IMG/VR virus record: IMGVR_UViG_3300043786_001177
Span: 1-51,814 of that record
DNA length: 51,814 nucleotides
From: a virus
Direction: 5' to 3' (one strand)
Part shown: piece by piece, positions 4,173 to 51,814 of the stretch
How the letters are laid out: each line of letters begins with the position of its first letter
Numbering within the stretch: position 1 is the stretch's first letter
Notes under the pieces: model-generated
The model's database searches: none
The model's input: the letters and a program-made list of their open reading frames with translations, nothing else
What the model was told of the DNA's origin: nothing
Made by a program: the position numbers and the translations under genes

Positions 4173-4196
4173 CAGATTCCCGCTATACCTACTTGA

Positions 4197-4997: not shown

Positions 4998-5022
4998 AAC
5001 CAACTCCCCCAAAACCCAGTGC

Positions 5023-5060: not shown

Positions 5061-5113
5061 CCCCACCAATGAACCGACCACACGGCCGGTTTTTCGTTTG
5101 GCACCTGCGAAGA

Positions 5114-6168: not shown

Positions 6169-6185
6169 AGTTTTCAATCTAAAAC

Positions 6186-6221: not shown

Positions 6222-6383
6222 GTCACCGCACATAGCTTAGACCAAGCCGTGCGAAGGCCAGGAGTTTACAGATTTCACGTCGTTTCTTGCGTTATGGCAC
6301 ACTACTCAAACAACTTTGCTTCTGGCCAGACTACCATAAGACGGCCGACATTTTTTCTGTGGTCTTTCGGCCCCGCTGTTGAG

Positions 6384-8054: not shown

Positions 8055-8096
8055 TTTCACGTACTCCTGCACCTGTGAACTGTCTGCAAACTCCGT

Positions 8097-9074
8097 TTAA
8101 GCCACCTGAGACTTTACGCCACCCAGTTTCGACCAGTCGATATTTGCGTTGAACCCGTCTGCACTGCTGATCGCGATACACTCCGCGCCCCGCAGATGCC
8201 GTTGAACGAACTCCGCAATCGGCACCAGCAGCGTTCCTGGCGGCAACAGTTCGCCCGTCAATGGATCTTTGACACGACCGTGGACGTCACCCCATGAATT
8301 CAGAATCGCTACGCATGGCACTTTGACGTTCTCCCAGAACGCATAGATCGTCATGGCATGCGGCCACGTGCCTGATGGCATGTGGAACCCTGAACTTGTC
8401 GGCTTCATCGTGTAGCCGGTGTTTGCACAGATGTGCAATGGATAGCCGTGATACAGAGAATCTCGCGTCTCATTCCAGCCGTTCGTTCTCGCCCACTGCA
8501 GAACTTTCTGCCCAGTCGCCTGCTCCAGATAATCACGGAACGACTTGCCTTGATACTTGCGATCGTCGCCCCACGCCTGACCCAGCGCTTTCGTGTACTG
8601 AATCCCAGCCGTCGCCTCGGCAATCACGCCATACAACGCTACCGCTTCAGCCTGCCATCCGCCGACCGAACCATCACCGCCGCGTAGCTGATTCTTTCCG
8701 ACCAGCACACGCCCCGTCGCATAATGAAACGGCGAGAAGAGCCACTGATATTCCTCGAACGCATCGTTCAAAATCGCCCCGCACAATCGCATCACCAGCG
8801 TGCGAATCATTGCGGTTGCAACACAATCCCCCAGCAACTGCGGATCAATGCGGATCGTCGAATCTGTCACCGCATTGACGGCCAGATCCAGTCGGATGTT
8901 TTTACCGGCGCCTGACTCTTTCTGACCGGCAATAAAAAATGGCTTCGCAAACTTCGAAGCCACGTCATCCGCCAGTCGTTGCGCCTCTGTAATGCGTTCC
9001 CGCATCGTGGTCGCATCGCGACGACCCCACCCGCAGAAGTCAATGCAATTTCCGGACGTGATAATCTGTGACAC
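8097..9074 (-). CDS. Papain-like (C1-type) cysteine peptidase
   Basis: The 325-residue protein uses a GTG start at 9074 behind GGGGCG. The catalytic set of papain-like enzymes is visible: Gln79 and Cys84 in DPQLLGDCVATA, His239 in TWPHAMTIYAF, and Asn259 in AILNSWGDVHG. The last of these is the classic NSWG box. There is no signal peptide. It lies between two lipoprotein genes and one gene from a holin-like protein, so a lytic enzyme acting on peptide cross-links is possible. Processing of virion proteins is the alternative. Papain-like enzymes are rare as phage endolysins compared with CHAP or NlpC/P60 types. Confidence 0.7.
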   Translation of the reverse strand: MSQIITSGNCIDFCGWGRRDATTMRERITEAQRLADDVASKFAKPFFIAGQKESGAGKNIRLDLAVNAVTDSTIRIDPQLLGDCVATAMIRTLVMRLCGAILNDAFEEYQWLFSPFHYATGRVLVGKNQLRGGDGSVGGWQAEAVALYGVIAEATAGIQYTKALGQAWGDDRKYQGKSFRDYLEQATGQKVLQWARTNGWNETRDSLYHGYPLHICANTGYTMKPTSSGFHMPSGTWPHAMTIYAFWENVKVPCVAILNSWGDVHGRVKDPLTGELLPPGTLLVPIAEFVQRHLRGAECIAISSADGFNANIDWSKLGGVKSQVA

Positions 9075-9083
9075 GTTGCGCCC

Positions 9084-9521
9084 CTATTTCTTCTTTGCTG
9101 CCGCTCGCATGGTTTCAGACAACTGATCGAACGCACGCACCAGCAATTCGCGTGACTTCTCAACCGTTTTGAGTTTCTCCAGTTCCGCAGTCACCAATGG
9201 ATGCGGCTCTTTCACGAACTGGCCTGCTGTCTTGATGCACGCATTCAGCAGCATCATTGCCGGGATATCAGCGCGTTCCTGAAACGACTGCGAGAACGCA
9301 CGGAACAGCGCCGCGTATCGCATGCAGACGTCCTTGGTGATCGATGCATCCGACACCAGAGCACTCAGGAACGCCGCGTCCACTTTTTCTGGCTTACCAG
9401 GTTCAATCGGAGTCACAACGTCCGGCTTCGGAACGTCTGGCACGACAACATCGTCTTTGCCGTCATCGATCTGGACACACCCGAAAATCAAAATCAACAG
9501 CGCAAGAAAAGGCAGACGCAT
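9084..9521 (-). CDS. Small lipoprotein, possible outer-spanin-like lysis protein
   Basis: The 145-residue protein starts at ATG 9521 after GAGGGGTG. The N-terminus MRLPFLALLILIFGCVQ is a lipoprotein signal with lipid-modified Cys15. An Asp/Pro/Val linker follows (VVVPDVPKPDVVTP), then a helical domain (about residues 48-140) ending in AAAKKK. It should sit in a membrane facing the periplasm. It lies between the holin-like gene and the cysteine peptidase gene, consistent with a lysis cassette. It is longer than typical outer spanins, so the assignment is tentative. Confidence 0.6.
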   Translation of the reverse strand: MRLPFLALLILIFGCVQIDDGKDDVVVPDVPKPDVVTPIEPGKPEKVDAAFLSALVSDASITKDVCMRYAALFRAFSQSFQERADIPAMMLLNACIKTAGQFVKEPHPLVTAELEKLKTVEKSRELLVRAFDQLSETMRAAAKKK

Positions 9522-9539
9522 GCGACACCCCTCGATTTG

Positions 9540-9986
9540 TTACTCGGAAACACTCTTGGCCGTCACTCGGCCGACTTTGATCTGCACTTTGTCAAGCAAT
9601 TCCTGGCCCTCTTCGTCTGCAATCAAGGCTACGCGAAGATGATGCACGCACCCCAACAGATGCGCGACTTCAACCGGTATCGCCGCCACTGACTCTGGCG
9701 TGATGGAATGGTCCGTGTCCGGACTTGACTTCGGCCCCGGCTCTGGCTTCTTTGGCTGCAAATTATCACCCAGCCCTGCCATGACAGACTTCCAGTTGAC
9801 GGCATTGCCGAACGCCGCCGCGACGCTGCCGCCGATTCCAATCAGCACAAACGCGACCATCCGCGATGGAATTCTTGCATCACCGACAGGAATCACTCCG
9901 CGTGAATCCCAGTATCCCGCGACCATCGTAATCACTGCGACAACCAACGATACGACGCACGCTGAAATGAGACGATTGAACCACAT
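9540..9986 (-). CDS. Holin-like protein with two membrane segments
   Basis: The start is ATG 9986 behind GGGGGTG. The 148 residues contain two hydrophobic helices: residues 7-25 (SACVVSLVVAVITMVAGYW) and about 43-62 (MVAFVLIGIGGSVAAAFG). A Pro/Lys linker follows (PKKPEPGPKSSPDTD), then a soluble tail of about 60 residues. Two-span small proteins next to a peptidase gene are typical holins. The soluble tail is larger than usual. It is the first gene after a terminator at 10025-10066, so its expression may depend on read-through or antitermination. Confidence 0.55.
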   Translation of the reverse strand: MWFNRLISACVVSLVVAVITMVAGYWDSRGVIPVGDARIPSRMVAFVLIGIGGSVAAAFGNAVNWKSVMAGLGDNLQPKKPEPGPKSSPDTDHSITPESVAAIPVEVAHLLGCVHHLRVALIADEEGQELLDKVQIKVGRVTAKSVSE

Positions 9987-10024
9987 ACCACACCCCCGAT
10001 AAACCTTGACAAAACAACCTGACG

Positions 10025-10066
10025 AAAAAAAAACTGCGCGAACACATTTTCAGCATTCGCACAGTT
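10025..10066 (-). terminator. Intrinsic terminator before the lysis-like genes
   Basis: An 11-bp stem, AACTGTGCGAA with TTCGCGCAGTT on the minus strand (one G-U pair), has a 13-base loop and is followed by an uninterrupted run of T. It lies between the 10081 stop and the 9986 start. Confidence 0.85.
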
Positions 10067-10080
10067 CATAACTGCAACAA

Positions 10081-10431
10081 CTATTCAACCGGCAGAGCAT
10101 AGCCCTGCAGCGCGTATTCCAATAAACCATTGACCACCAGGGCGATAATCTTCTCTTCCACGAACTCCGGCGCTCCGGGAACGTCGACGGCTTTATTGAG
10201 TTCCGTCGTCAATACGTCGGCCAACACCTTGAGTTCTTCCATCGTGACGCCGTCTGCCACTGTCGCCATCGCAGCAATAGCCCACTCTGGAATATGCGGC
10301 GCGATTCTTTCGACCATCCAGAGAATGGCCTGTGCTTCCACGGATTCAGGAACGATCGGAATGTCCAGGCTTTCATTCAGCTTCCGGACAAGATCATCAA
10401 TCACCGGCTTCGAATCCAATGCAATAGCCAT
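10081..10431 (-). CDS. Hypothetical protein, 116 aa, internally duplicated
   Basis: The start is ATG 10431 after GGAGG. The protein is helical and acidic, with two similar halves: LNESLDIPIVPESVEAQAI in the first and LNKAVDVPGAPEFVEEKII in the second. Each half ends in a hydrophobic helix (WMVERIAPHI and LVVNGLLEYAL). There is no signal peptide. It is the only gene of a short unit bounded by a CGTATGC-type promoter upstream and a strong terminator downstream, so it may be made in large amounts. Its function is unknown. Confidence 0.65.
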   Translation of the reverse strand: MAIALDSKPVIDDLVRKLNESLDIPIVPESVEAQAILWMVERIAPHIPEWAIAAMATVADGVTMEELKVLADVLTTELNKAVDVPGAPEFVEEKIIALVVNGLLEYALQGYALPVE

Positions 10432-10511
10432 CTGTAACCTCCATCAATCGCGACGACACTCGTCACTCACCACAAATGTGAAATCATGCAATCACATGCC
10501 GTGCCTGTGTT

Positions 10512-10541
10512 ACCATGACGCATACGCAAAGTCCAGAGCAA
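10512..10541 (-). promoter_or_regulatory. CGTATGC-type promoter of the 10081-10431 unit
   Basis: On the minus strand TTGCTC, 18 bases, then CATGGT; the spacer contains CGTATGC (10526-10520). It lies 89 bases before the ATG, between the small membrane protein gene and 10431. The rest of this 157-base gap holds no gene. Confidence 0.5.
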
Positions 10542-10588
10542 TGACGTGTTGCTTCATCAATTAGTAACAACTCGCCTGAGTGATGCGT

Positions 10589-10765
10589 CTAGCGACATGA
10601 TGAAAACCACACGACAAATGCAATTACGATTCCGAGTAGCAGCGTGGTTGCAATTGAGCGTATTGTTTCGATCCAGAAATTTCGCACAGTTACTCGACGC
10701 AATTCTTTCAGCACTTCATTTGCAAGATCGTCGATCTTCTTTTGTTCTTCCGGCGATGGCATCAT
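10589..10765 (-). CDS. Small membrane protein, 58 aa
   Basis: This short gene starts at ATG 10765 (a second ATG follows at 10762) with a GAGAGGA ribosome-binding site eight bases away, and ends in TAG at 10591-10589. Residues 1-36 are charged and helical (MMPSPEEQKKIDDLANEV). Residues 38-55 form one hydrophobic helix (IATTLLLGIVIAFVVWF), followed by SSCR. It follows the sulfotransferase gene by 45 bases and precedes a promoter box. A lysis or envelope role is possible; nothing in the sequence proves it. Confidence 0.6.
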   Translation of the reverse strand: MMPSPEEQKKIDDLANEVLKELRRVTVRNFWIETIRSIATTLLLGIVIAFVVWFSSCR

Positions 10766-10810
10766 GTGAGCAATCCTCTCTGTCAGAGCGACTGTCTGCG
10801 TCGTTGTATC

Positions 10811-11341
10811 TCAGATGTTATTCAGACTATTGAACAGAGCAATATCTCTGGCGTAGTGCTGCACCACAAATTGCAGTTCTTGATTACTCAGTTCGGGTTT
10901 TACTGGCTCTTCATTCATTTGAGGCAGTGGCGTGGGGAGTCCAAGAAATTCAGCACACTGGGTTAACTGTGAAAACAAGAAATACTTGGCTTGTGGGTGA
11001 CTCAAAAGGCCCATGCTGTCGAGCGTCCACGTATGCACATCGTCGAGATTTTCTGCTATCACGGCGGCTGGTGGTTTCTGCAGTCTCGCACACGCACTTC
11101 GAAACCGCTCAACTGGATCTCTCACAACGACTGCAAGCGTAACTTCTCCGGGCACATTCTCCACGGACAGATCACACATTCCCTGCTGTAGATTCATCAC
11201 GGGATGCCAGCGTTTTCCTTGATGCGGCTCCCAGCTTTCTTGCCGAGCTTGTGGGTCGAAGTGCTTCAAAATCAAACTAAACAGAGTGTGACTACCGCTG
11301 CGCGGCACAAGAGCAAGACCGACAGAGTTATTATGCCACAT
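10811..11341 (-). CDS. Sulfotransferase-like protein
   Basis: The 176-residue protein starts at ATG 11341 (MWHNNSVGLALVPRSGSHTL) with an AGAGG site close by; an in-frame ATG at 11353 overlaps the upstream gene. PAPS-dependent sulfotransferases carry a 5'-phosphosulfate loop near the N-terminus, here VPRSGSHT (residues 12-19), and a 3'-phosphate motif, here RDPVERFRSA (74-83) with Arg and Ser in place. It is shorter than most family members. It lies eight bases after the oxygenase gene, downstream of the fibre genes, so a sulfate may be put on a fibre protein, its glycan or a host surface sugar. The substrate is inferred only. Confidence 0.7.
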   Translation of the reverse strand: MWHNNSVGLALVPRSGSHTLFSLILKHFDPQARQESWEPHQGKRWHPVMNLQQGMCDLSVENVPGEVTLAVVVRDPVERFRSACARLQKPPAAVIAENLDDVHTWTLDSMGLLSHPQAKYFLFSQLTQCAEFLGLPTPLPQMNEEPVKPELSNQELQFVVQHYARDIALFNSLNNI

Positions 11342-11349
11342 GACACCTC

Positions 11350-11922
11350 TCATAACTCGCTGCCTCGCGGTACACAAAACCCGAACATAAACATGATACG
11401 CGGGGTGCTTCCAAAGCAGGTCTCTACGTGGTGGTAATTCTCACTGACACTGTACGCCATCAAATCGCCAGCTTGCAGCTTGTATGTCGCATCTTCTACG
11501 TGGATCAACCCACCCGACTCCGCCGCACTTACCAGTATGTTGAACCGCAGTGCAACAGTGCCTGGAGCCTGCCAATCAGTAGCTGGATCTTTATGTCGAT
11601 ACACGTCGCCGCCATCATACGTGATGCTTACAACCACGCCGTCCTTGCCGTGCCCTTCGATAACTTCCGCCTCTTTGATCAACGGAAATGCCTCTCGCAG
11701 TCGATTCTGTATTGTGTAAACCAAATCAGGATACTGGATGTTTCTGGACATCCTGTTCGTTTTTCTGGTTATCACTTGAATGAACTCTTTGGTTTCCCAG
11801 TTTCCGCTGACGCCATCAACAAATTGCGTATCGGCAGACGCCACAGCCCAGTCCGTCAAAATTGAACATTCTTCTGGTGCTATGAAGCTGCGAACCAGTA
11901 AGACATGTTTTTCGCAATTCAT
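11350..11922 (-). CDS. 2-oxoglutarate/Fe(II)-dependent oxygenase
   Basis: The start is ATG 11922, overlapping the stop of the preceding fibre gene as TGATG. The facial triad of the prolyl-hydroxylase-like fold is visible: His110 and Asp112 in YRHKD, and a distal His at 164/165 in NYHHVET. Arg175 in TPRIMFMFGF fits the 2-oxoglutarate ligand. The 190-residue length suits a single double-stranded beta-helix domain. Such enzymes hydroxylate Pro, Lys, Asn or Asp side chains or small molecules. Translation coupling to fibre genes, with a collagen-like gene two steps upstream, suggests a virion fibre as substrate. Confidence 0.8.
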   Translation of the reverse strand: MNCEKHVLLVRSFIAPEECSILTDWAVASADTQFVDGVSGNWETKEFIQVITRKTNRMSRNIQYPDLVYTIQNRLREAFPLIKEAEVIEGHGKDGVVVSITYDGGDVYRHKDPATDWQAPGTVALRFNILVSAAESGGLIHVEDATYKLQAGDLMAYSVSENYHHVETCFGSTPRIMFMFGFCVPRGSEL

Positions 11923-13139
11923 CACGTTACCCCCCATTTTTCGTACAAATAGTTTCTAATGCCATTGATTTGTGCGCTCGATAACACCGAATTGTAAACG
12001 ATCAGTTCCGCTAATGATCCAGTAAAAGCACGAAATAAATAGTACGCAACATTTCCGATACCACCTTCAGCCAAACTTCCACTTTCACTTAATGCGAGAT
12101 TGTTGTTAGCAAGTATTATGCTACCCCTATTGGATGCTGATGCTTGTGTCATATCAGAGGAAATAGTTAAATTATGCCAAGTATCCATTGCAAATGAATT
12201 TGTGCTAGACTCTGCGAAGTATCTACTTCCAAATGAGTTCAGGTTTTTTGCAGCTACCCGTATATAATTTTTTTGGATATCAGTGCATGACGTTTTGTCA
12301 CAACTCCGATATGTAATTTCATTTTGCATTGCCCATCCCGGGCCTTGTATTTGGTTGCTGTCTATCGCTCCGGCACCCAATAACGACTGGGAAGTATTGC
12401 TGGTTAAGGCTGTTAAGTAGGATTTATTTTTGTAAACGCAAAATACAGTACCCTGCGATTGATGCAGGAAACTTAATTGAAAACCATTAGCTATATTAAA
12501 TAACGTGTTGGTGGGAGAATCTAACGTATTTTTGCCATTGAGCGATGCAATTTTATGCTGGCCGCTACCAGTAGAGCTATTATTACTCGTAGTTGCGTGC
12601 CTTGAGTTTCCAGACTTATCTTGAATTCGTCTTACTTCTCCATTGTTTGCTGGAGTTGATCCTCCACTTATTGCCGTGTACAACGTGGTTGCGTCAGCCG
12701 CATCATACCAAAGTTGCAATCCAGCAATTGTATTCGGTGATATAGTGCCAGACGGTGTTGCGGTAGTGCTTGCATACTGGCCAACCGTAAAATTTACCGC
12801 CGCCACACGTACTGTGTAGCTAATGTCGTTTGTTAGTCCAGTGATTGTATATGCCGGGGTTGTGCTGCCAGTTAGCACTGCTGTTAAGGCTCCTCCGGAT
12901 GGCGTATATTCCACGAGATAGTTTGTGATCGTGCCGTGCGTCGTAGCCGGTGCTGTCCATGTCAGCGATAAAGCTCCACTTTGCGGTTGTGCCACTAAGT
13001 TTGTTGGCGATATCGGCCCCCTTGACCACTTCCCCTGTGGTAGCATTTGCTGGGCTTCGCGCAATGAGAAAATTCCGCTGGAGTTAGTTGTCGTCCACGT
13101 AGGCAATAACCCAGTAATGATTCCTGCTTCTGGTCTCAT
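11922..13139 (-). CDS. Fibre/appendage protein with fibronectin III and LamG-like domains
   Basis: The 405-residue protein starts at ATG 13139, overlapping the previous stop as TAATG. Residues 1-40 include GIFSLREAQQMLPQGKW, a segment common in phage appendage proteins. A fibronectin type III domain follows (about 42-130: LVAQPQSGALSLTW to YTVRVAAVNF). The rest, from LQLWYDAADATTLY, resembles a concanavalin-A/LamG-like carbohydrate-binding domain ending in GIRNYLYEKWGVT. It is probably a receptor-binding appendage. The LamG-like part is visibly richer in A and T than neighbouring genes, which suggests recent acquisition. Confidence 0.75.
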   Translation of the reverse strand: MRPEAGIITGLLPTWTTTNSSGIFSLREAQQMLPQGKWSRGPISPTNLVAQPQSGALSLTWTAPATTHGTITNYLVEYTPSGGALTAVLTGSTTPAYTITGLTNDISYTVRVAAVNFTVGQYASTTATPSGTISPNTIAGLQLWYDAADATTLYTAISGGSTPANNGEVRRIQDKSGNSRHATTSNNSSTGSGQHKIASLNGKNTLDSPTNTLFNIANGFQLSFLHQSQGTVFCVYKNKSYLTALTSNTSQSLLGAGAIDSNQIQGPGWAMQNEITYRSCDKTSCTDIQKNYIRVAAKNLNSFGSRYFAESSTNSFAMDTWHNLTISSDMTQASASNRGSIILANNNLALSESGSLAEGGIGNVAYYLFRAFTGSLAELIVYNSVLSSAQINGIRNYLYEKWGVT

Positions 13140-13492
13140 TAAGAAATATCCTCATAAGAACAAACTGCTTCCAAGTCCCCATTCACTGACGCAGTTAGTC
13201 GTAGCGAATCCCCTTCTTCCAGATAAAGCGGTTTGCTCAACAAGTCAATTGTTGCATCTGCTGGAACACCGACTGTGAACGCTATGCGATACGCCACGCC
13301 ACTGCGAAAAAGATCAACTGTTACATCAGCAGCAACCGCTCCGTCAACGTTTGATACCCACAAGCCAACGACGCGCAACACTTTATTGCTTGCTGCCGAA
13401 TTGGTCAGAATCGCAGTTGCCGAAGTTGTGACAACCAAAACGGCTGTGCGACCGTAACAGGCTGTCATCGATGGTAAGTTTGGTGCAGCCAT
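13139..13492 (-). CDS. Small beta-rich virion-associated protein, 117 aa
   Basis: I start at ATG 13492 (MAAPNLPSMTACYGRT), overlapping the previous stop as TAATG; the upstream open frame lies inside the neighbouring gene. The sequence is a run of beta strands (AVLVVTTSATAIL, VLRVVGLWVSNVDG, RIAFTVGVPADATIDLL) ending in EAVCSYEDIS. This suits a beta-sandwich that decorates a fibre or trimeric base. It is flanked by the collagen-like gene and the LamG-like gene and coupled to both. The family is not recognised with certainty. Confidence 0.6.
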   Translation of the reverse strand: MAAPNLPSMTACYGRTAVLVVTTSATAILTNSAASNKVLRVVGLWVSNVDGAVAADVTVDLFRSGVAYRIAFTVGVPADATIDLLSKPLYLEEGDSLRLTASVNGDLEAVCSYEDIS

Positions 13493-14094
13493 TAGAATAT
13501 CAATCCTATTGCGAATGCCCGTGAATTTGAAACGCCGCCGCCGCCACCACCTGAACCGGCTGGTCCCACGAGTGATGTCGGTGAACCCCACGCACCTGCC
13601 GTTTTCGGCCCGTAGATTTCGCTCACTACCGTGTTGATGTAAAAGTCGCCATCGACGCCCAAACCGTTTGAGGGCGCTCCGCTGCCACTGCGAACCGTCT
13701 TGCCGTCAAGTCCGTTGGTGCCGTTGGTGCCGTTGGCTCCTGTCGGTCCTGTGGCACCCGCTGGTCCAACCAATGACGTCGGTGATCCCCAATTGCCACT
13801 AGTCTTCGGACCATAAATCGTGTTTGCTGCCGTGTTGATGTAAAAGTCGCCATCGACGCCTAAACCGTTTGAGGGCGCTCCGCTGCCACTGCGAACCGTC
13901 TTGCCGTCAAGCCCACTACCTCCACCTAATGGCTCGCCATCGGCACTTGCAGCCGCGCGAATTTCTGCAGGACTAAGAATTTTCGACGCACCGAACCCAT
14001 CTGCTCCAATCACGGAACCTGCAGGCAATTGTGGTGTGAAAATTCGTGAGAACAATGCCGTGATGAATGCTGGATCATTGCCTGGCTCTATCAT
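13492..14094 (-). CDS. Collagen-like fibre protein with duplicated module
   Basis: The 200-residue protein starts at ATG 14094 behind AAGGA. After a 60-residue N-terminal part comes a module of about 67 residues present twice: GLDGKTVRSGSGAPSNGLG, DGDFYINT, IYGPKT, then WGSPTSLVGPAG. Between the copies is a Gly-X-Y run of about eight triplets (GPAGATGPTGANGTNGTNG). It ends in a Gly-rich stretch and a short tail. Collagen-like modules trimerise and form thin stalks in phage fibres. Prolines of the triplets are in X positions. The oxygenase gene two genes downstream makes hydroxylation of this protein conceivable. Confidence 0.8.
   Translation of the reverse strand: MIEPGNDPAFITALFSRIFTPQLPAGSVIGADGFGASKILSPAEIRAAASADGEPLGGGSGLDGKTVRSGSGAPSNGLGVDGDFYINTAANTIYGPKTSGNWGSPTSLVGPAGATGPTGANGTNGTNGLDGKTVRSGSGAPSNGLGVDGDFYINTVVSEIYGPKTAGAWGSPTSLVGPAGSGGGGGGVSNSRAFAIGLIF
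13630..13910 (-). repeat. Near-identical direct repeat inside the collagen-like gene
   Basis: About 80 bases starting at 13630 recur at 13831 (offset 201) with a single visible difference. They encode the GLDGKT to DGDFYINT module. The near identity at DNA level indicates recent duplication or ongoing recombination. Confidence 0.85.
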
Positions 14095-24503: not shown

Positions 24504-26330
24504 TCAGTCCCGCGACGTATCAAACTCATCGCCAGTGAAGTGATCGGCGGTGACGCCGCGATGCAACAATCGTTTCCACCAGCCATTGTCAGCCGCCTTG
24601 CAGTTGGCCGCGAACTCCACATCGAAGAATTTGTGCGGCCCATCGCCGGACAATGGGAAACGTCTTAGCAGTGATCGACGTGTCAGAAGCAAACCGAACC
24701 CTGTCCCGTCAACCTCTTCGATCCCTTCACCGTGAAGACTTGAGAACGATTCATTTCCGAGAAACGGAACTCTGAATGCACAGCACTTGTCTGACTGATA
24801 CCGCTGCCTGTAGACGCCGGAAACGCCTGACACCCATGGCCCCATTTCTCTCAGCAACAGTTCGATGGCGTTCTTCTGATGCGGCACCACATCGTCTTCG
24901 ATAATGACCGCGTATTCGGTCCCCAGCAGTCTGATTGCGGTGTTGTAGACTGCACCCACGGCCGCTTCAACGGCTTTGCTGACACCTGGATTGTTCCGCC
25001 GTTCTTTGTCAGCCAGATTCTTCACGCCAGCGTCAATTCGCTCAATCTGAATTGACCCCTGCCAGTCCTCAAGTCCCAGCATGGCGGTTGTCAGTGGCGC
25101 GTGATACGAATTGATGATCATCAGCCTGAGTTGATGCAGTGGCCACGTCTGTGACGACAGCCACGCTCTGAGTTTTCCCCAGACACTCCATCGCCCACTG
25201 AACGCGATCACGATTGTCAGAGTTTCATTCTCGAAGTCCGCATCGTTCCAGTACACATTGTTCGGCCGCAACGACATGTTGTTGCCGTGCATCCGGTAGG
25301 ACAAAGGCGTGTTCATCTTTTTGGCGATCCATGCGCCAGAACGCAGAATTGCTTTTGCGATCCTCCAGTCCTGCGACCAGCACTTTGAACCGTCGATCTT
25401 TCCGCCACGGAACACCAACGACTGATGCACCAGTTCTGTGCGAATTACAGACCCTGCGCTCACCCAGTTTCGCTGTTCAATGTCGTCCGCTGTCAACTGA
25501 AACGGCGCTCGCTCTGTCCCGTGCGCTGGACCTGATGCGCCGCCAAAGTATTCCAAATGCGGATATACGATCGCAATCCGACGATCCTCTTTGAAGACTG
25601 TCATCGCGTCTGCGAAGTAGTTTTCCGGAATCATGTCGTCCGCATCGATGAATGCCACGTACGTGCTGGTGACATGAGAAAGCCCGATGCCTCTGGCTTC
25701 ATGCACGTCCCGCACTTCACATCGAACGTACTGCACGCCTTCGAACTGATCGACGATTTCTTTCGGATTGTCCGTGCTGGAGTCGTCAACCACGATGATC
25801 TGCGAGACAGATTTCCGCTGTGCTTTGATTGACTGCAGACACTCGCCAAGAAATCGTGCGTAGTTGTGGCATGGAACAACAACTGAAATTGTTGTCGTGT
25901 CGAGTTCAACGATTCGCGTGACAGAAGATTCTTCACGATGCACGCAGGTCTCGCATACCTGCAATGCCTGCGACTCTGGTGTTCCAACAACAGACGCCAG
26001 CTTTCTTTTGTTCTGCTCTGTTGCAATGCAATCAATCTGCAGCTTCCTGCAGATCCATAGTTGTGGTGAACCGCAACAGACGTTCCTTGCTGACCCTCGG
26101 TGAATGCATGGAACTGGATCTGGGAGCACTACAGCAGCAGACTGAACCGGGGATGGCGGGCCGATCGCGATCAGTTCAAACTCGGTTTTCTGCCGCGTCA
26201 ACTCATCGCCAATTGCTTCAGTCACCACCCTGCGCGATCCATCCCCAGCCAAACTCCCGAGTTTGGCACCGACGTGTTTTTTAACAAATTCCAATGCTGA
26301 TTCTTCGCTGGTCCTACCGAGGCATAGCAT
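24504..26330 (-). CDS. Double glycosyltransferase (GT2-like, GT-A) with Cys-rich N-domain
   Basis: The protein has about 608 residues from ATG 26330; a GTG at 26342 is the alternative. A short N-terminal domain precedes a Cys-rich domain (CIHRG, CCGSPQLWICRK, DCIATEQNKRKL, CETC). The first GT2 domain is clear: TISVVVPCHNYARFL, QIIVVDDSSTDN and the metal-binding FIDADD. A second GT-A domain starts near LTIVIAFSGRW, has YAVIIEDDVVP as its acidic motif, and ends in GTGFGLLLTRRSLL. It should add two sugars or elongate a glycan using nucleotide sugars. Its position among fibre and tail genes suggests that virion proteins or host glycans are the acceptor. Confidence 0.85.
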   Translation of the reverse strand: MLCLGRTSEESALEFVKKHVGAKLGSLAGDGSRRVVTEAIGDELTRQKTEFELIAIGPPSPVQSAAVVLPDPVPCIHRGSARNVCCGSPQLWICRKLQIDCIATEQNKRKLASVVGTPESQALQVCETCVHREESSVTRIVELDTTTISVVVPCHNYARFLGECLQSIKAQRKSVSQIIVVDDSSTDNPKEIVDQFEGVQYVRCEVRDVHEARGIGLSHVTSTYVAFIDADDMIPENYFADAMTVFKEDRRIAIVYPHLEYFGGASGPAHGTERAPFQLTADDIEQRNWVSAGSVIRTELVHQSLVFRGGKIDGSKCWSQDWRIAKAILRSGAWIAKKMNTPLSYRMHGNNMSLRPNNVYWNDADFENETLTIVIAFSGRWSVWGKLRAWLSSQTWPLHQLRLMIINSYHAPLTTAMLGLEDWQGSIQIERIDAGVKNLADKERRNNPGVSKAVEAAVGAVYNTAIRLLGTEYAVIIEDDVVPHQKNAIELLLREMGPWVSGVSGVYRQRYQSDKCCAFRVPFLGNESFSSLHGEGIEEVDGTGFGLLLTRRSLLRRFPLSGDGPHKFFDVEFAANCKAADNGWWKRLLHRGVTADHFTGDEFDTSRD

Positions 26331-26381
26331 GACTACAAACACTCCGGGGAAATGACTGACGTTAGAAATAGGGCAAAGACA

Positions 26382-42745: not shown

Positions 42746-44119
42746 TTATCGTGCAGCCAGACGAATGAAGCTGCTCTGAGTCGGTGGATTCGTTGCAGCG
42801 TCAGGTGACTTGAACGGGGTGATTGGTGTTGGCAACAGTGGTGATCCGCCGAATCGGACGACGAATCGCAGACACTGCTGATCGGTCATGAACTCGACGT
42901 GAATACTCACGTCTTCGCGTACCAGCGACTGAGTGATCGCCTTGTACTGCTTCAGGTCCACATACCAGACGTCGCCAGGTGATCCGAGTGGCGAACAGAG
43001 TTCGCTTTCGATCAATGGCCGATTCAACAGTGTGCTCGTGACAGGGCCAGCAAGACCACCGTTTTGAATGTTGACCGTCACAGGGAAGTTGCCGATTGAC
43101 ATTTGACCAATCTGCGGGATGACGCTCTGGTGATGCATCCAGACTGCAGATCCTGCAGAGTTGCGCCACATGCGAGCGGACATCTTCAGAGCGTTCTGTG
43201 CGACAAACGTCGCGGCAGACTGACCACCTTCAGCAGATTCCTGAATAACGGCGCCTGAGCGAGCGAACCCAAGTGGTTCGTTCAGTCCGTTGCCCCACAT
43301 GATCGCTCGGCTCAACGCGAAGTTGATTTCCTCACGCACCGCGTTGCGAACGTAGGTCTCAACTGCGTATGGCGTGTCGTTCATGATTTCTGTGGTCATG
43401 AACACAAAGACTACCAGCTTACGCATGCGAATTTCAGTGAACGCCAGCTTTGGGCGACTGTCAGCGCCCGGATCAGACTCATCGATCCAGTAGTGCATGA
43501 CACCACCGTTTCGAGTTCCGTCGTTGCGATCAAGATCTTTGACGCGCGGAATGTTGTAGACCGTTGCTGTGGTTGGCAACGTGTCAACTCGGCTTGCCAG
43601 ATCGTTCTGGACAAACAGCGTTTCAATCTTTGGCGCGATTTCCGGATTAAGAAGAAATCCGCCGTCTTCGCCGACTGTGCTGGACAGTCCGCGTGCCTTG
43701 AAGAATCCACCCATGTCACGCATGCCCTTGAACGTGCTTGCGTGTCGGGCTGTGAATTCGTCCCTGCGACCGGCCTGCTTTGCTCTCCATCCGTCCTGAA
43801 GGAACTCACCCATGTTGTCCCACGGACAAGCGAATGGATAGCCTGCGTCCTTCAGTGACTTGGCCAGCATGTAGTCGCGATACTGCGTGTTCATGTGGCG
43901 AGACGGATCGTCCCACGTCTTGAACATCGCGCGGTTTTTTCCTTCCTCCGGCGTTAGAGCATCAGCCCCGAACGCCTTGTGCGAAGCGGATGAAACTGTC
44001 CCCAGTTCATTCGCTTTGCCTGGGATAACAACCTGCTCGCCGCCACGTTGTCGTGCGACAAGTTCGTCGATTGCTCGTTCAACTTCAGAGTCGGCAATCA
44101 CTGGGGAGTTTGATGACAT
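42746..44119 (-). CDS. HK97-type major capsid protein, 457 aa
   Basis: The start is ATG 44119 (MSSNSPVIADSEVERAIDEL). The first 140 residues are helical and probably a delta-type scaffold removed by the prohead protease. The mature part starts near TVGEDGGFLLNPEIAPKIE. HK97 markers follow: SRVDTLPTTATVYNIPRV (N-arm and E-loop region), RMRKLVVFVFMTTEIMNDT, EEINFALSRAIMWGNGLNEP, and the P-domain helix VETYVRNAVRE. The length and gene order (protease before it) fit. It lies directly below a conserved promoter and leader, as expected for the most abundant virion protein. Confidence 0.9.
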   Translation of the reverse strand: MSSNSPVIADSEVERAIDELVARQRGGEQVVIPGKANELGTVSSASHKAFGADALTPEEGKNRAMFKTWDDPSRHMNTQYRDYMLAKSLKDAGYPFACPWDNMGEFLQDGWRAKQAGRRDEFTARHASTFKGMRDMGGFFKARGLSSTVGEDGGFLLNPEIAPKIETLFVQNDLASRVDTLPTTATVYNIPRVKDLDRNDGTRNGGVMHYWIDESDPGADSRPKLAFTEIRMRKLVVFVFMTTEIMNDTPYAVETYVRNAVREEINFALSRAIMWGNGLNEPLGFARSGAVIQESAEGGQSAATFVAQNALKMSARMWRNSAGSAVWMHHQSVIPQIGQMSIGNFPVTVNIQNGGLAGPVTSTLLNRPLIESELCSPLGSPGDVWYVDLKQYKAITQSLVREDVSIHVEFMTDQQCLRFVVRFGGSPLLPTPITPFKSPDAATNPPTQSSFIRLAAR

Positions 44120-46100: not shown

Positions 46101-46862
46101 TCAACGAATTTTGAATCCTGATCTCTGGATGGCCTGTCTCACCGCGCTGGCCCGTGGTGGAAGTCTTGCGATGCGTCCGCGCACCAGCAGATTGTTGTAC
46201 TCGCCAAACAACAGTTCGAGAACACAACAACAATGCGGATGCATTGGCGGTCCTGACGGCACAAATCGCGACCAGAAAGAATAGACTGTTCCATCGAGCA
46301 ACGGGCACACGTCGCAATGCTGGCATGGCCGCGTTCTCCAGACCAGTTCGCACGCAACTCCAGCGTCAACGAGTTCGTGATAGATTGCAGAGACGGCGAC
46401 GGATCGTGCTGCCGTCATTTCGGTGATCGAAATCATTCTCGCCCGTGCAGTTGTGATGACGTCCTCTGGTGACGATCCGTTTGCGAGTCTGTTTTGCGTT
46501 GTGTTGCTGATCGACTCTGCGGCGAATCGTGCCCTGCGCTGCATTTCTTCAGCCGCACGTTGCTGAATAGCTGCTTCCGTTCTCTGGCGTTCTCTTTCGG
46601 ACTGCTCAAGGTTCTGGATTTCCTCGAACGCCGTGTTCATCTGTGACAACGTATAGCCCAGCATCAGCGCCAGCAGCGCTGCGGCTTGTTCGTTCTCCCA
46701 TTTCTTCCAGTGCGACGCCTTGACTTTGGAGATATCTGGCGGGCTTCCGACGATCGCAACCAACTGCGATTTCTGTCTCTCGAAGAGTTTTTCAAACCGT
46801 TTTTCGAATTGCTTTGGCAATACTTTGCGGATTTGCTTCAACTGCTGCTCAGCCGTTGGCAT
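46101..46862 (-). CDS. MuF/SPP1 gp7-like minor head protein, 253 aa
   Basis: The start ATG 46862 follows the preceding stop by two bases. The N-terminal half is helical (QLKQIRKVLPKQFEKRFEKL). The C-terminal half is the phage head morphogenesis domain: ITEMTAARSVAVSAIYHEL, then ACELVWRTRPCQHCDVCPLL with Cys pairs, and GPPMHPHCCCVLE, the conserved PPxHPxCxC motif. Such proteins enter the procapsid with portal and scaffold. The gene is directly after the 2H-like gene and the next unit starts with its own promoter. Confidence 0.8.
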   Translation of the reverse strand: MPTAEQQLKQIRKVLPKQFEKRFEKLFERQKSQLVAIVGSPPDISKVKASHWKKWENEQAAALLALMLGYTLSQMNTAFEEIQNLEQSERERQRTEAAIQQRAAEEMQRRARFAAESISNTTQNRLANGSSPEDVITTARARMISITEMTAARSVAVSAIYHELVDAGVACELVWRTRPCQHCDVCPLLDGTVYSFWSRFVPSGPPMHPHCCCVLELLFGEYNNLLVRGRIARLPPRASAVRQAIQRSGFKIR

Positions 46863-46864: not shown

Positions 46865-47647
46865 CTAGTATCCTCCATCGAGTGTATCACTCAGCCCCAG
46901 CGCTCGATTCATCCATGCATCGTCGTCCTCATCGTCGTCGTCCTCATCGTCGTCGTCGTCATCATCGTCGTCATCGTCGTCGATATCGATTGAGTATTCC
47001 GTATCGATCAACGCGCCGCCAGATTCCATGTCCAGCGTGCTCATGCCGTTGGCCTTACCAAACAACGCGGTGTCTGGCGTTGTGGCTCCGAATCGCATCG
47101 GCGAGTGTCCATAGAACGGGCAATCCCGCTCTTCAAGGGACGTGCCGACTTTCAGTTCGTTGATGATCCAGTCGACGCCGATGATGCCGGACGCTTTCAG
47201 ATCATTCAGAACATGATCGTCGATGGTGATTTCTTCGAACGTCGCGACCACGATATACGGCGTGAACGACAGCGGCTCAATTGCGTAGGTTACGCTTGCT
47301 GCAAGCGACTGGTGAAGTTCCTGCAGGTCCGGACAATCAACTGTGATCACCAGCGCTGTCTGCAGTTGGTTGATCCGTTTGGTATCGAACCGCATTGCGA
47401 CCGCCCGCATAGGCGCCATACACGTAGCTATTTTTGCGATGTGGTCGATGCATTCGTCTAGGTCCGCGATTCCAGCGATGACTCCGATTCGCAGATCATC
47501 GTTGATTTTGGCGATCGGTATGGCCTGCACGAACATCTGCTGCCAGCGCCGTATGGCGTCTTCGATTGTAGGTGGAAGCCTCACCCAAACAGATCCCTGT
47601 CTGGATGATTTCATTGCCAGCATTCGTTTGAAAAAAACGTCGCTCAT
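46865..47647 (-). CDS. Degenerate 2H-phosphoesterase-like head protein with poly-Asp tail, 260 aa
   Basis: The start is ATG 47647 after AGGTG. Residues 16-140 look like one 2H phosphoesterase (2'-5' RNA ligase-like) fold: GSVWVRLPPTIEDAIRRW, the strand DLRIGVIAGI where HxT is expected, the typical FDTKRINQLQTALVITVD, and FTPYIVVATF where PHxT is expected. Both catalytic His positions seem replaced (Leu52 region and Tyr131). 2H proteins occur near head genes in various phages. Residues 215-250 are almost pure Asp, encoded by a GAY repeat. Whether the fold assignment is right is uncertain. Confidence 0.5.
   Translation of the reverse strand: MSDVFFKRMLAMKSSRQGSVWVRLPPTIEDAIRRWQQMFVQAIPIAKINDDLRIGVIAGIADLDECIDHIAKIATCMAPMRAVAMRFDTKRINQLQTALVITVDCPDLQELHQSLAASVTYAIEPLSFTPYIVVATFEEITIDDHVLNDLKASGIIGVDWIINELKVGTSLEERDCPFYGHSPMRFGATTPDTALFGKANGMSTLDMESGGALIDTEYSIDIDDDDDDDDDDDDEDDDDEDDDAWMNRALGLSDTLDGGY
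46921..46989 (-). repeat. Trinucleotide repeat encoding poly-Asp
   Basis: Plus-strand cgt and cat codons (minus GAC, GAT) are repeated with a few tcc and cct interruptions across about 23 codons. Replication slippage could change the tail length. Confidence 0.8.
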
Positions 47648-47689: not shown

Positions 47690-48562
47690 CTACCGAGTAG
47701 CCGCCTCATTCGCCAATACCGCGATGGCTTCTTTTGCCGTCGCACGGTGAATCGCCAGGACTGGCGTGATCTTTCCAGCCTTTGTGCGCTGGTAACCCCC
47801 TGCGAAGTTCCAGACGACTGGCAAGCCCAGTTCCATGCACCGGTCGAAGACGAAGCGATCACGTGCCTTCAGTTGAGCATCCGTCATCTGTCCACCGAGT
47901 GGATCATTGATATGCGGATCTGCCCCGGCCTGGTAAATCAGCAGTCCTACGCCGTCCGCTGCGGACTTTGTCAGGAACGCATCGATATCGAACAACAAGT
48001 CTTTCTGTCCTTCGGCGCCTCGATCGAATCTGTGCCCGCCGTACGTCCAGTGTTTCACTGTGTCCGTCAGTTCCAGCGTTTCGATAATATCTTCCGTGCC
48101 GTCACCATAGTGCTGATCGCAGTCCAGAATCGCGACCTTGCGGCACAACCCTTCGTTGATCACGGTCCGTGCGGCGACGATCAGCCCGTTGAACGTGCAA
48201 AACGCCCCGTTGTAACCATGGCCAGCGTGATGGAATCCGGACGTCGGAGAACAGACGATCCGGTTTTCAAACGCGGCTCGGCTTGCGGCGACCAAAGAAC
48301 CGACCGTCACGCGGCAAGACTGCGTGACTTCCGGAATGCAATTGCCGTGACCGTTGGACTTCTGTCCTGCCAGAACTTTCTCGGCGAACTTTCGATCATG
48401 TGCAAGCGCCAGATCCTCGATCGTTGCGGCTTCGAACTCGCTGACGATCTCAATGTCCAGCCCGCGTTTCTGCCAGTCTGCAACACACTGCGCTGGCTTC
48501 TTTGCTGACGGTGAATAGCCGCCAGAATCCACTGACATATCATCACGAAAAAATACCTGCAT
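47690..48562 (-). CDS. Zinc-dependent deacetylase, HDAC / acetylpolyamine amidohydrolase superfamily
   Basis: The 290-residue enzyme starts at ATG 48562 behind GGGGGGTG. All key residues of the superfamily are present: the general-base pair His111-His112 in SGFHHAGHGYN, zinc ligands Asp149 and His151 in ILDCDQHYGDGTEDI, the third ligand Asp215 in QAGADPHINDPLGG, and the catalytic Tyr257 in FAGGYQ. The family removes acetyl groups from lysine side chains or polyamines. The length is a little shorter than bacterial amidohydrolases (about 340). It lies between a small charged gene and the 2H-like gene, in the capsid region. Target unknown. Confidence 0.9.
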   Translation of the reverse strand: MQVFFRDDMSVDSGGYSPSAKKPAQCVADWQKRGLDIEIVSEFEAATIEDLALAHDRKFAEKVLAGQKSNGHGNCIPEVTQSCRVTVGSLVAASRAAFENRIVCSPTSGFHHAGHGYNGAFCTFNGLIVAARTVINEGLCRKVAILDCDQHYGDGTEDIIETLELTDTVKHWTYGGHRFDRGAEGQKDLLFDIDAFLTKSAADGVGLLIYQAGADPHINDPLGGQMTDAQLKARDRFVFDRCMELGLPVVWNFAGGYQRTKAGKITPVLAIHRATAKEAIAVLANEAATR

Positions 48563-48602
48563 CGCTACACCCCCCTGACTATGTTATTGAATCAACCAAA
48601 CG

Positions 48603-48657
48603 AAAAAACGGGTGATTCGCATAATAGGTCTGCAGACCTATGATGACGTTTCACCCG
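48603..48657 (-). terminator. Long hairpin terminator containing a palindrome (site 2)
   Basis: On the minus strand CGGGTGA/TCACCCG encloses the perfect 18-base palindrome ATAGGTCTGCAGACCTAT (48624-48641), and is followed by TTTTTTCG. The palindrome has the same arms as 24288-24305, with TATTATGCGAATC after it. It sits between the 48684 stop and the deacetylase start. Confidence 0.7.
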
Positions 48658-48683
48658 AATTTCAGCGCGACAGTTTTTCGTTT

Positions 48684-48875
48684 TTACCGTGTTTTACCGG
48701 CAATTCGTGCGTCCGCCGCTCGTTCCATTTCGGCAACTTCGTCTGCGGAAAACGGATTGCCCTCATTCTGAGGTGCCTGCGTTTCCACAACTGTTGCGGC
48801 TTTGGCTTTCTGCCGTTCCTGGTACTTCGCTTCCTGTTTCGCCTGAACTCTTGCAATTACGTCTTTCAAAGCCAT
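48684..48875 (-). CDS. Small charged helical protein, 63 aa
   Basis: The start is ATG 48875 (MALKDVIARVQAKQEAKYQE), six bases from GGGAG; upstream in-frame codons overlap the leader. It is a basic helix followed by a more acidic one (NEGNPFSADEVAEMERAADA). The function is unknown; its place between the GNAT-like and deacetylase genes makes it a possible scaffold or partner. A GTTATCAGTGGTATGGC stretch in its leader resembles the promoter boxes only loosely. Confidence 0.55.
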   Translation of the reverse strand: MALKDVIARVQAKQEAKYQERQKAKAATVVETQAPQNEGNPFSADEVAEMERAADARIAGKTR

Positions 48876-48960
48876 TTGTTTCTCCCGGTGAAATTGTCTG
48901 CGTTTTTGTCGCCATACCACTGATAACGAAAAAACCGTGCCAATGGATCAAAGTTTTTTT

Positions 48961-51015
48961 CTATCTGCTCGATCTTTCGTTCAAATACCGTTCCAGAACC
49001 TGCATGCTACGCGATCCGTCGTTTAGGTCAAAGTCCATTGAAAGACTGCTGCCGTTGACGAACCAATAGTCTCGACCGCCTGGCGCGTCGAACAGATCCT
49101 GAATTGTTTCCACGTTGGGAAACTTCTGTCGGATTTCGTCTTCCTGCCTTAGCCCTCGGATGTTGCGTTCGTATCCCAGAAGCGGCCACGTGTAGTAGCC
49201 GTTCATGCTCCCGCCCAGACTTCCTGCTGCACTCACCGAAATATCTTCGAATTCCGCCGCTCTGGCTTGTCGGACCATCTGTGAGAAGATTTGTGCCCCC
49301 TCGCCTTTGTATTGCGAACCGGCTCGGAAGTAGGCCGCATAGATCGACTTCCCCGAGATTTCGCGTTCCATGCGAAGTCCGCCAGGTCCTTCGACTTCAA
49401 TGCTGGTTCCGCTGACAGAGACTGTCGATCCTTCAGGTGCCCCCACGAATGACGCAGCATCGTCGATTCCCAGATTGCTGAGTTCGTACGAACTGCCTTC
49501 GCTGTCACTGTCGTAACCACCACCCTCCGCGTGTCCATAGTTTCTAGCCGCTTCGAACGACGAATCGGAATCCATGTTGTTCCATTCTTCGTCTGCGTAC
49601 TCCTGCAGAACATCGTCATCGTTCATCATTTCTTCGACTTTGTTGTCGATCAGTTGTTCGACTCCGGACGTCCACGACTTCCCGCGCCTCCATGCTGCAT
49701 AGATCTGGTCCGCAGCTTCATCATCGTCGATCTGAATAATCTCGGCGATATCATCTTCACCGGGGATGTTGACAACGCCTGGCTCTGATTGATTCAGCGA
49801 CGCCGTCACCAGATCAATCAGTTCCTCGACCTTGTCGTTGTCCAAATCACCATCTTTCCAGGCTGCTGCACTGTCCGTCAATTTAATTCTGATGGACTCC
49901 AGATCGGCATCTGTCATTTCCTTGCCGATTTTCAGCCCGCCGTCAATGGCCTCTTTGACGGTACTTTCGATCTGGTCCGCGACTTCTGCCTGACCTACAT
50001 CCAGATATTCCCAGTCGATATCCGGAAGCAACTCATCCAGGTTTTCACTGATCACATCTTTCGTGTCAACGTTTTCACGGACTGACTCGCCTACCCATTC
50101 AAGGAAATCAGAGTCTCGCATGCGATCACTGGTCCAGTCTTCCTGCACCTGCGACTGCGTGTAGCTGTCCAGATCATCCCATGAACTCGGCCCACTCACG
50201 CCAACGTCGGCGCTGCTTGCTTTTAGTGGCATCAGTTCATCGAACGACTTTTGTGCAGTCGGCTTGATCGCAATCGGCTTTTGCGCATCAGCCGGATTTT
50301 CCGCATAGTGCGCCCACAGCGCGGCTTTCTCATCGAACTCTTTGGCTTTCTTGAAATACAACTCCCTGTCATCGTCCCCCATGACTCTGGAAATCAGGTT
50401 TGGATCGGTTTGCGTTTCTCGCTTGATTGGAAGCAAGTTCCAGAGTTTTTGGGCATCCTGTTCGTACTGCGCCGCGATCTCACTGGATCGCTGTTGCGTC
50501 ATCGATCCTGCGGCATTATGGATCGCCGCTTTGGCCATCGGCGCCATCTGTGCTTTATCGATCGACTTCGGCGCGACCTTATGCATCAGCTTCACCGTCG
50601 CGCCTGTTGCCGCGTCAACGATTGCGGGCTTTTGTGGCTTCGGTGGCTTTGGTTCCTTGCCTGCTGCCTCACGTTGCTTCTGCATCGGTGACGGCTTCGG
50701 CTGCGGCTTTGGCTTTGGCGTGACCGGCTGTGCCTGCTGCGCGGGCTGTGCTGGCTTCTGCAGTGGCGCTGGCTTTCGCTTTGGAATCGCTGGCACTGTT
50801 CCGGCCTCTGGCTTCAAGCCCTGCGGCATGCGTCGCACGACCGGCCGTTCCTGCGCTGTGCCGTCATAGATCACGCCGTCGCCGTCGCCGTCGATCTCCT
50901 GCCCCGGACCGCCGCGTTTCTTCTTTCCCGGTGGACGCATACCGATCTTGCCAATCGCCTTGAGTGATTGCGCCTGTCGAAAGAACGAACTGGCGAAAGA
51001 TTCATTGCCGGACAT
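48961..51015 (-). CDS. Head-region protein with EF-hand-like loop and GNAT-like C-terminal domain, 684 aa
   Basis: The start is ATG 51015 (MSGNESFASSFFRQAQSLKA) without a strong ribosome-binding site. An EIDGDGDGVIYDGT loop (about residues 40-53) looks calcium-binding. A Pro/Lys/Gln-rich linker and an acidic helical region (about 230-500) follow. The C-terminal domain (514-684) has features of GNAT acetyltransferases: an acetyl-CoA loop-like YKGEGAQIF (569-577), a helix (VRQARAAEF) and NGYYTWPLLGYE (605-616). The general-base residue cannot be named. The GNAT assignment is an inference. The paralogue next to it shares the same C-terminal domain. Confidence 0.55.
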   Translation of the reverse strand: MSGNESFASSFFRQAQSLKAIGKIGMRPPGKKKRGGPGQEIDGDGDGVIYDGTAQERPVVRRMPQGLKPEAGTVPAIPKRKPAPLQKPAQPAQQAQPVTPKPKPQPKPSPMQKQREAAGKEPKPPKPQKPAIVDAATGATVKLMHKVAPKSIDKAQMAPMAKAAIHNAAGSMTQQRSSEIAAQYEQDAQKLWNLLPIKRETQTDPNLISRVMGDDDRELYFKKAKEFDEKAALWAHYAENPADAQKPIAIKPTAQKSFDELMPLKASSADVGVSGPSSWDDLDSYTQSQVQEDWTSDRMRDSDFLEWVGESVRENVDTKDVISENLDELLPDIDWEYLDVGQAEVADQIESTVKEAIDGGLKIGKEMTDADLESIRIKLTDSAAAWKDGDLDNDKVEELIDLVTASLNQSEPGVVNIPGEDDIAEIIQIDDDEAADQIYAAWRRGKSWTSGVEQLIDNKVEEMMNDDDVLQEYADEEWNNMDSDSSFEAARNYGHAEGGGYDSDSEGSSYELSNLGIDDAASFVGAPEGSTVSVSGTSIEVEGPGGLRMEREISGKSIYAAYFRAGSQYKGEGAQIFSQMVRQARAAEFEDISVSAAGSLGGSMNGYYTWPLLGYERNIRGLRQEDEIRQKFPNVETIQDLFDAPGGRDYWFVNGSSLSMDFDLNDGSRSMQVLERYLNERSSR

Positions 51016-51070
51016 ATTATTGCTTTCTGAGTTGAGTTTTCTTGTTGGAGAAATGCCAGCAATGGTTTTC

Positions 51071-51814
51071 TTACTTGTTGGCCTTTTCGTTCATATACCG
51101 TTCGAGCACTTTCATATTCCGCGACCCGTCACTCAGATCGAAATCCATCGAAAGAGTGCTGCCGTTCACGAACCACCAGTCTCGACCGCCTGGCGTATCG
51201 AACAGATCCTGCATGGTTTCGACTCCCGGAAAGTTCTGTCGAATTGCGTTGCGTTCGCTGACGTCGTCGATGTCCGCTTCGTATCCCACAAGCGGCCACG
51301 TGTAGTAGCCATTCATGCCGCCACCCAGTTCGCCTGCGGCCGTTACTGAGATATCCATGAATCCGGCTTCTCTGGCCTGTCGCACCATCTGCGCGAAGAT
51401 CTGCGCCCCCTCGCCCTTGTAACGTGAACCGGCATTAAAATTGGATGAATAGATCGACCCTTGGCTGATTTCTCGCTTCATGTACAGATCGCCGCGACCT
51501 TCGACGTTGATCGTAGTCCCGTCGACGGTCACAGTTGACCCATCTGGTGCGCCTACGAATGACGCGGCGTCTTCGATTCCAAGTTCTCGAAGTTCCGGTG
51601 AACTGATGGTGCTTGACTGCTCTGAATACTCTTCCGCATGTCCATGATCTTTTGCGGCTTGCAGCATCGCATCATCGTCCATGTTGTCCCATTCCATCTC
51701 CGCGTATTCCTGCAGCGTGTCGTCATCGCTCATTCTTGATTCGACTTCGTTATCGATCAAATCGTTGATGGCTTCCGACCGTCCTCGCTTCCAGATTTCA
51801 TATAATTGGCTGAC
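51071..51814 (-). CDS. Paralogue of the GNAT-like head-region protein, C-terminal part (runs off the right edge)
   Basis: The frame is open through the window edge, with 247 codons visible before the stop at 51071 and no start. It aligns well with the C-terminal 245 residues of the 684-residue neighbour: LIDNEVESRMSDDDTLQEYA, GIEDAASFVGAPDGSTVTV, YKGEGAQIFAQMVRQAREAGF and NGYYTWPLVGYE are shared almost unchanged. This is tandem duplication with divergence in the acidic linker. The same tentative GNAT-like reading applies. Its N-terminal domains lie outside the window. Confidence 0.7.
   Translation of the reverse strand, partial: VSQLYEIWKRGRSEAINDLIDNEVESRMSDDDTLQEYAEMEWDNMDDDAMLQAAKDHGHAEEYSEQSSTISSPELRELGIEDAASFVGAPDGSTVTVDGTTINVEGRGDLYMKREISQGSIYSSNFNAGSRYKGEGAQIFAQMVRQAREAGFMDISVTAAGELGGGMNGYYTWPLVGYEADIDDVSERNAIRQNFPGVETMQDLFDTPGGRDWWFVNGSTLSMDFDLSDGSRNMKVLERYMNEKANK

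Follow-up and report, generated by a model that had tools for sequence, protein, structure and literature searches.

An acetyltransferase-like domain on polyvalent head-module proteins of a phage and a neighbouring HDAC-family deacetylase: probably separate tools rather than a fixed pair

Can a phage carry, within its head module, both the writer and the eraser of an acetyl mark? The question is raised by one end of the virus record IMGVR_UViG_3300043786_001177 (51,814 bases, hereafter the window), in which an earlier note had read two tandem proteins with a GNAT-like C-terminal domain and, after just one small gene, a complete deacetylase, and had proposed that they act as a pair. Both halves of that proposal, and the single open reading frame (ORF) at 48684-48920 between them, stand on sequence and predicted fold; the pairing does not hold in most relatives. 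The arrangement is probably best explained as virion-delivered GNAT effectors joined by an independently acquired accessory deacetylase, in a virion-effector island of the head module. Polyvalent phage proteins, in the sense of Iyer et al. 2017 (PMC5512222), are multidomain proteins whose genes accompany those of the virion and which are predicted to enter the particle and be injected. All genes of the region lie on the minus strand of the window:

51071-51814, minus strand: C-terminal end of an upstream polyvalent protein, an ORF cut by the window end and complete in a sibling phage (L003:5209-8448)
51074-51649, minus strand: GNAT-like domain copy 2, from a profile match and alignment
48961-51015, minus strand: protein of 684 amino acids (aa), with a tagged N-terminus, a Pro/Lys-rich linker, an acidic middle and a C-terminal GNAT-like domain
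50842-50892, minus strand: DGDGDGVIYDGTAQERP linker, from a motif scan
48964-49554, minus strand: GNAT-like domain copy 3 (residues 488-684, with confidence from ~510 on), with a QxxGxG loop at 568-573 and NGYYTWPLLGY at 605-615
48684-48920, minus strand: small intervening gene, a 78-aa ORF with a probable true start at ATG 48875 (63 aa)
48603-48657, minus strand: terminator-like hairpin with U6 tract that separates the deacetylase from the small gene, predicted by folding
47690-48562, minus strand: Zn-dependent HDAC-family deacetylase of 290 aa (PF00850, E 5.4e-27)

An AF2 model of the C-terminal domain of the 684-aa protein, built on an alignment of 74 relatives, reached a mean pLDDT of 89.3 and a pTM of 0.83, and the comparison with GNAT folds that the earlier note had suggested for residues ~514-684 bears out its reading. 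All 50 of the 50 PDB matches listed by Foldseek are acetyltransferases (best E 2e-4), and so are the VIA-align rows save for Elp3 chains and one entry named 'uncharacterized' (best Z 8.6 over 131 residues at 4.2 Å), the neighbours including the AcrVA5 structure 6iuf. Elp3 chains contain a GNAT-type domain. A Z near 8 alone could reflect a common arrangement, and the uniformity of the neighbour list is the stronger point. A profile from 28 relatives gave five matches to PDB sequences, all with weak E-values, four of them named acetyltransferases or yncA and the fifth (1yvk) a 'hypothetical protein' by name that is titled acetyltransferase in the structure listing; among viral structures, one neighbour (TM 0.72) bears a phage head morphogenesis annotation. 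The domain has a GNAT acetyltransferase fold in this predicted, not solved, structure.

The sequence motifs agree with the fold. The acetyl-CoA pyrophosphate loop of GNATs follows the motif (Q/R)xxGx(G/A), and the KGEGAQ stretch that had been taken for this loop lies in Q568-x-x-G571-x-G573 (QYKGEG, 568-573), which fits it. The two loop glycines, which lay outside the search pattern of the second motif scan, are kept in 69/74 and 71/74 alignment rows (93–96%); the conservation of GYYTWPxxG is partly circular, because the GYYTWP motif was itself the pattern with which the scans searched. Chance resemblance of KGEGAQ and NGYYTWP to GNAT motifs was considered and rejected, since the fold model agrees and dozens of viral contigs contain the domain. 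Bacterial contigs, those of Planctomycetota and a few others, also have relatives, and some proteins carry two or three copies of the domain. Scans of the 684-aa protein with Pfam, PHROGs, NCBIfam and PADLOC gave nothing useful, its relatives matched Acetyltransf_1/7/10 weakly (0.0032 at best), one relative matched phrog_3810 'acetyltransferase' (5e-5), and tblastn of the domain and two relatives against isolate phages found no match.

The wider context comes from a sibling phage, IMGVR_UViG_3300044613_002570, which is 99.97% identical to the window over 4–14 kb and extends beyond its end. There the upstream protein is complete, with 1079 aa combining an ART-PolyVal domain (ADP-ribosyltransferase, ART; PF18760, E 5.7e-16) and the GNAT-like domain, and is preceded by a 2135-aa chain made of Phage_portal (PF04860, 5.6e-14), InPase (PF18823, 7e-40) and a C-terminal GNAT-like domain; further upstream still is a gene resembling that of the terminase large subunit (Terminase_6C, 1.8e-4, slightly below the cut-off). 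Three consecutive proteins thus have this C-terminal domain in common: the 684-aa protein and, complete in the sibling alone, portal-InPase-GNAT and ART-PolyVal-GNAT. The portal fusion, at L093:7163-13570 and outside the window, joins a portal, an inorganic pyrophosphatase-like domain, linkers and a GNAT-like domain into a single chain. The head-module setting also holds, the gene order being terminase-portal-...-MuF-major capsid protein, with terminase and portal seen in the sibling.

The tandem arrangement of GNAT-like proteins is confirmed by the domains of the 684-aa protein and the truncated upstream ORF, which share 71% identity over 177 residues. Because the sibling shows the full 1079-aa paralogue, to which the 684-aa protein is 70% identical, the 684-aa gene is recognized as a partial tandem duplicate, and both duplicates look kept by selection, given a dN/dS of 0.27 for the whole and 0.20 within the GNAT domain. 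A further feature of these proteins is an EF-hand-like motif, DGDGDGxIxDGTxQERP, present six times in the three polyvalent proteins taken together (L093 proteins 3643-6909 and 7166-13582; window 50842-50892), which is possibly a calcium-binding, processing or packaging tag.

GNATs, often beside ART, and InPase are among the domains of polyvalent proteins (PMC5512222), and the ART-PolyVal plus GNAT and portal plus InPase plus GNAT chains of the sibling place the GNATs described here in the same class of virion effectors. Judged by their domain matches and gene order, these proteins show two hallmarks of the class, namely several predicted effector domains per chain and encoding together with head and packaging genes. 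Presence in the virion is likely for one copy only, through its fusion to the portal.

The second half of the proposal, a complete deacetylase, is equally well founded: alignment and sequence give the entire catalytic set, H111/H112, the zinc ligands D149, H151 and D215, the charge-relay D147, and Y257. A pseudogene was considered and rejected, the gene being intact and identical in the sibling. Among solved structures it is closest to 9rje (E 4e-21), followed by VcHdaH (9gkv, E 9e-15), with polyamine enzymes at 8e-9; VcHdaH is a bacterial lysine deacylase of cluster 5b, and bacterial polyamine deacetylases form cluster 4 (PMC11532494). Viral relatives are common: one scan across viral contigs gave 248 stretches, and there are ten phage records. 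The setting of these genes was judged by tallies of flanking genes, in which the nameable neighbours are mostly thymidylate synthase, dCMP deaminase, HNH endonuclease and ligase; a scan of the deacetylase records for Phage_capsid and Phage_Mu_F was nearly empty and gave no unbiased division into head and other classes. A recurring setting unlike the head module is seen in L021/L099 and L125, where a DNA ligase-like gene lies close to the deacetylase, as does an AAA ATPase gene that is followed by another large gene.

Several features set the deacetylase apart from the GNAT genes. The 91-nt stretch around the hairpin at 48603-48657 folds at -30.6 kcal/mol (z -4.17), and 0/200 shuffles were as stable; a simple terminator scan missed it because its loop exceeds the short-loop limit of the scan. 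In L144 and L147, two of the four other loci in which a deacetylase and a GNAT-like gene are neighbours, the deacetylase lies on the strand opposite to the GNAT-like gene. The deacetylases examined are free of the linker motifs of the polyvalent proteins, DGDGDGxIxDGT here and KGAPxGNxNA in the other two loci, L142 and L145; the former motif was found neither in the deacetylase nor in any other locus of the motif scan. The hairpin upstream of the deacetylase, the opposite strand in L144/L147 and the untagged deacetylases are signs of INDEPENDENCE.

The distribution of the two genes points the same way. Relatives carrying one gene without the other at random had been named in the earlier note as what would speak against a pair, and most relatives do carry one alone: of the 49 virus records in which this GNAT family occurs, only 2 also have a PF00850 deacetylase (the sibling, and a jumbo phage of 618 kb where the two genes are far apart), and the GNAT profile matches in 4/50 deacetylase records. 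These counts do not show the conserved co-occurrence expected of a dedicated pair. At the level of loci, a GNAT-like protein lies within 8 kb of 4/79 viral deacetylases, the four representing two lineages. One of these, L142/L145, has an ADP-ribosyltransferase exoenzyme domain as neighbour, plus Acb1 and RelA/SpoT in L142, and the other, L144/L147, has an InPase. Against an InPase control, 4/79 compares with 0/78 (Fisher p 0.12, or 0.25 counting lineages), which is not significant, so that a recurring association is seen without being established; the control was built with the L144 InPase, so the set is biased to L144 kin. A search of the whole of 50 other InPase records found no GNAT of this kind.

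The GNAT-like domains of these other lineages are distant from that of the window, at 15–16% identity, and the GNAT assignment in L142/L145/L144/L147 comes from profile matches only, as an AF2 model of the L145 domain (pLDDT 79) gave no significant PDB match, its best Foldseek E being 0.27 and VIA giving no Z >=5. On a quick tree of the deacetylases, the GNAT-neighbour label needs three changes and the three groups fall in three places, and a single origin of the label may also be possible. The effector modules of L142 (2208-7604) and L145 (4767-7607) are split by the repeated KGAPxGNxNA peptide and include an Acb1-ADP-ribosyltransferase fusion and a RelA/SpoT-like protein; from its sequence, the peptide looks like a modular delivery or processing tag.

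As most related phages have one gene without the other, the GNAT proteins and the deacetylase are probably two independent host-directed tools rather than a fixed pair. The polyvalent proteins would form part of the particle and accompany the DNA into the cell. There, early in infection, the injected GNAT domains would move acetyl groups from host acetyl-CoA onto host proteins, and the ART domain would add ADP-ribosylation. The deacetylase would be a separate accessory gene, untagged and behind the terminator-like hairpin, that is made in the infected cell and strips acetyl groups from proteins or small molecules; such deacetylases are frequent acquisitions of phages, and some settle in effector islands. 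What the analysis shows is the sequence families, the predicted fold, the catalytic residues, the order of the genes, the portal fusion and the absence of obligate co-occurrence; packaging and injection, enzymatic activity, targets and timing are inferred. Some points weigh against this explanation. Packaging of the GNAT proteins in the particle is a prediction from the genes. The portal-fusion copy of the GNAT domain is partly degenerate, with VGYAVWP in place of NGYYTWP, so that not every copy need be active. Two other lineages have a deacetylase beside a GNAT-like polyvalent protein, and the association may therefore not be accidental; and among the 80 InPase control loci, a GNAT occurs only in L183/L184, which are L144/L147 again and the same two that have a deacetylase.

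The last two points are also the ones that would be expected of a dedicated pair, in which a GNAT, once injected, would put early acetyl marks on proteins of the host or the virion and the later-made deacetylase would reverse them, for example to release host machinery or to strip virion proteins of acetyl groups before assembly. The single small gene that separates the two here, renewed adjacency in L142/L145 and L144/L147, and the scatter of the three groups of deacetylases on the tree are in its favour. We nevertheless hold it to be improbable, given the counts of 2/49 and 4/79 with their Fisher values, the possible single origin of the label, the different orientation in L144/L147, the hairpin here, and the distant subfamily to which the GNATs of L142/L145/L144 belong, with an L145 model lacking a significant match. 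The broader version, that tailed phages repeatedly joined a virion-delivered acetyltransferase to an HDAC-family deacetylase of their own as a reversible switch whose entry marks are later removed, is consistent with three lineages that differ in GNAT subfamily and deacetylase branch, and is doubtful to the same degree.

A quite different explanation is that the GNAT-like domain is no longer an enzyme, being a repeated virion module for assembly, portal binding or packaging on a GNAT fold, with the deacetylase unrelated to it. Its repetition on three consecutive proteins, and up to three times per chain in relatives, and the degraded motif of the portal copy would suit such a role, as would W610, conserved near the usual position of the GNAT catalytic tyrosine in an alignment by eye, where Y607/Y608 could substitute for that tyrosine. 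On the other hand, the strongly conserved loop glycines, free of the second scan's search pattern, the purifying selection on the duplicates, and the established place of GNATs among polyvalent effector domains (PMC5512222) argue for an enzyme and make a purely structural role unlikely. Least probable by far is small-molecule chemistry, in which polyamines would be the substrates of both proteins (acetyl- and deacetyl-spermidine): phage or giant-virus enzymes are known with either activity (PMC9992855) and the HDAC family includes polyamine deacetylases, but 9rje and VcHdaH outrank the polyamine enzymes among the solved relatives, bacterial polyamine deacetylases belong to another cluster, and fusion of the GNAT to large virion proteins better suits protein targets.

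With the GNATs of PMC5512222 the present ones share a place in large proteins of several domains, ART and InPase among them, whose genes lie with those of portal and head and which are predicted to be packaged and injected. Here, in contrast, the domain is carried by three proteins in a row, including the portal itself, and the subfamily, with its GYYTWPRxGY signature, has no Pfam or isolate-phage match and is found in Planctomycetota contigs; that study describes two GNAT families, of which the present subfamily may be one. The word 'deacetylase' is absent from its main text. The deacetylase resembles the classical Zn-dependent bacterial deacylases of the cluster 5 type (VcHdaH; PMC11532494) in its Hist_deacetyl domain, complete catalytic residues and length of ~300 aa, and differs in being phage-borne and in a head module. 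That paper contains neither 'phage' nor 'virus'. A phage homologue at 32% identity is gp202 of Rhodococcus phage E3, a putative histone deacetylase two genes upstream of a putative tail fibre gene, whose annotated neighbours include no acetyltransferase and which is not in a head-effector island.

Phage GNATs acting on host proteins are exemplified by Rac, the phiKMV-like GNAT (PMC7552054), and by AcrVA5, which target the RNA polymerase alpha subunit and Cas12a; unlike the proteins described here, these are small and unfused to virion proteins, and no deacetylase of the phage's own is reported alongside in their accounts. Reversal of one element's acetyl mark by a deacetylase is known for Salmonella TacT/TacA and for AcrVA5 (PMC5449658, PMC9114340), where the eraser is the host sirtuin CobB, whereas here it would be an HDAC-family enzyme encoded by the phage. 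With the present locus, virion-type polyvalent effectors come to include a GNAT subfamily that is carried by the portal and by two proteins next to it. HDAC-family deacetylases prove widespread in phages, though the survey of bacterial deacylases (PMC11532494) makes no mention of phages. If true, the pairing would amount to a phage-encoded system of reversible acetylation, for which the window, L142, L144, L145 and L147 are the candidate loci.

The small intervening gene gave no family match in Pfam or PHROGs scans, and its start at ATG 48875 was chosen from the GGGAGA 5' of the ATG. Downstream of the deacetylase, the head genes of the window continue:

46865-47647, minus strand: 260-aa protein with a poly-Asp stretch, an ORF with low-complexity family hits only
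46101-46862, minus strand: MuF-like head morphogenesis protein (PF04233 E 0.0019, below the cut-off; phrog_2662 E 1.6e-11)
42746-44119, minus strand: HK97-type major capsid protein (PF05065, E 1.3e-27)

The 260-aa protein, in the interval between the deacetylase and the MuF-like gene, has its long aspartate run near the C-terminus (window ~46919-46999). Further downstream of the head genes lie a 612-aa glycosyltransferase-like protein (window 24504-26342) and a methyltransferase-domain protein (window 6384-8072), both of possible use in surface or virion modification, and the window also holds a thymidylate kinase-like gene at 4197-5177 (PF02223, E 4e-21).

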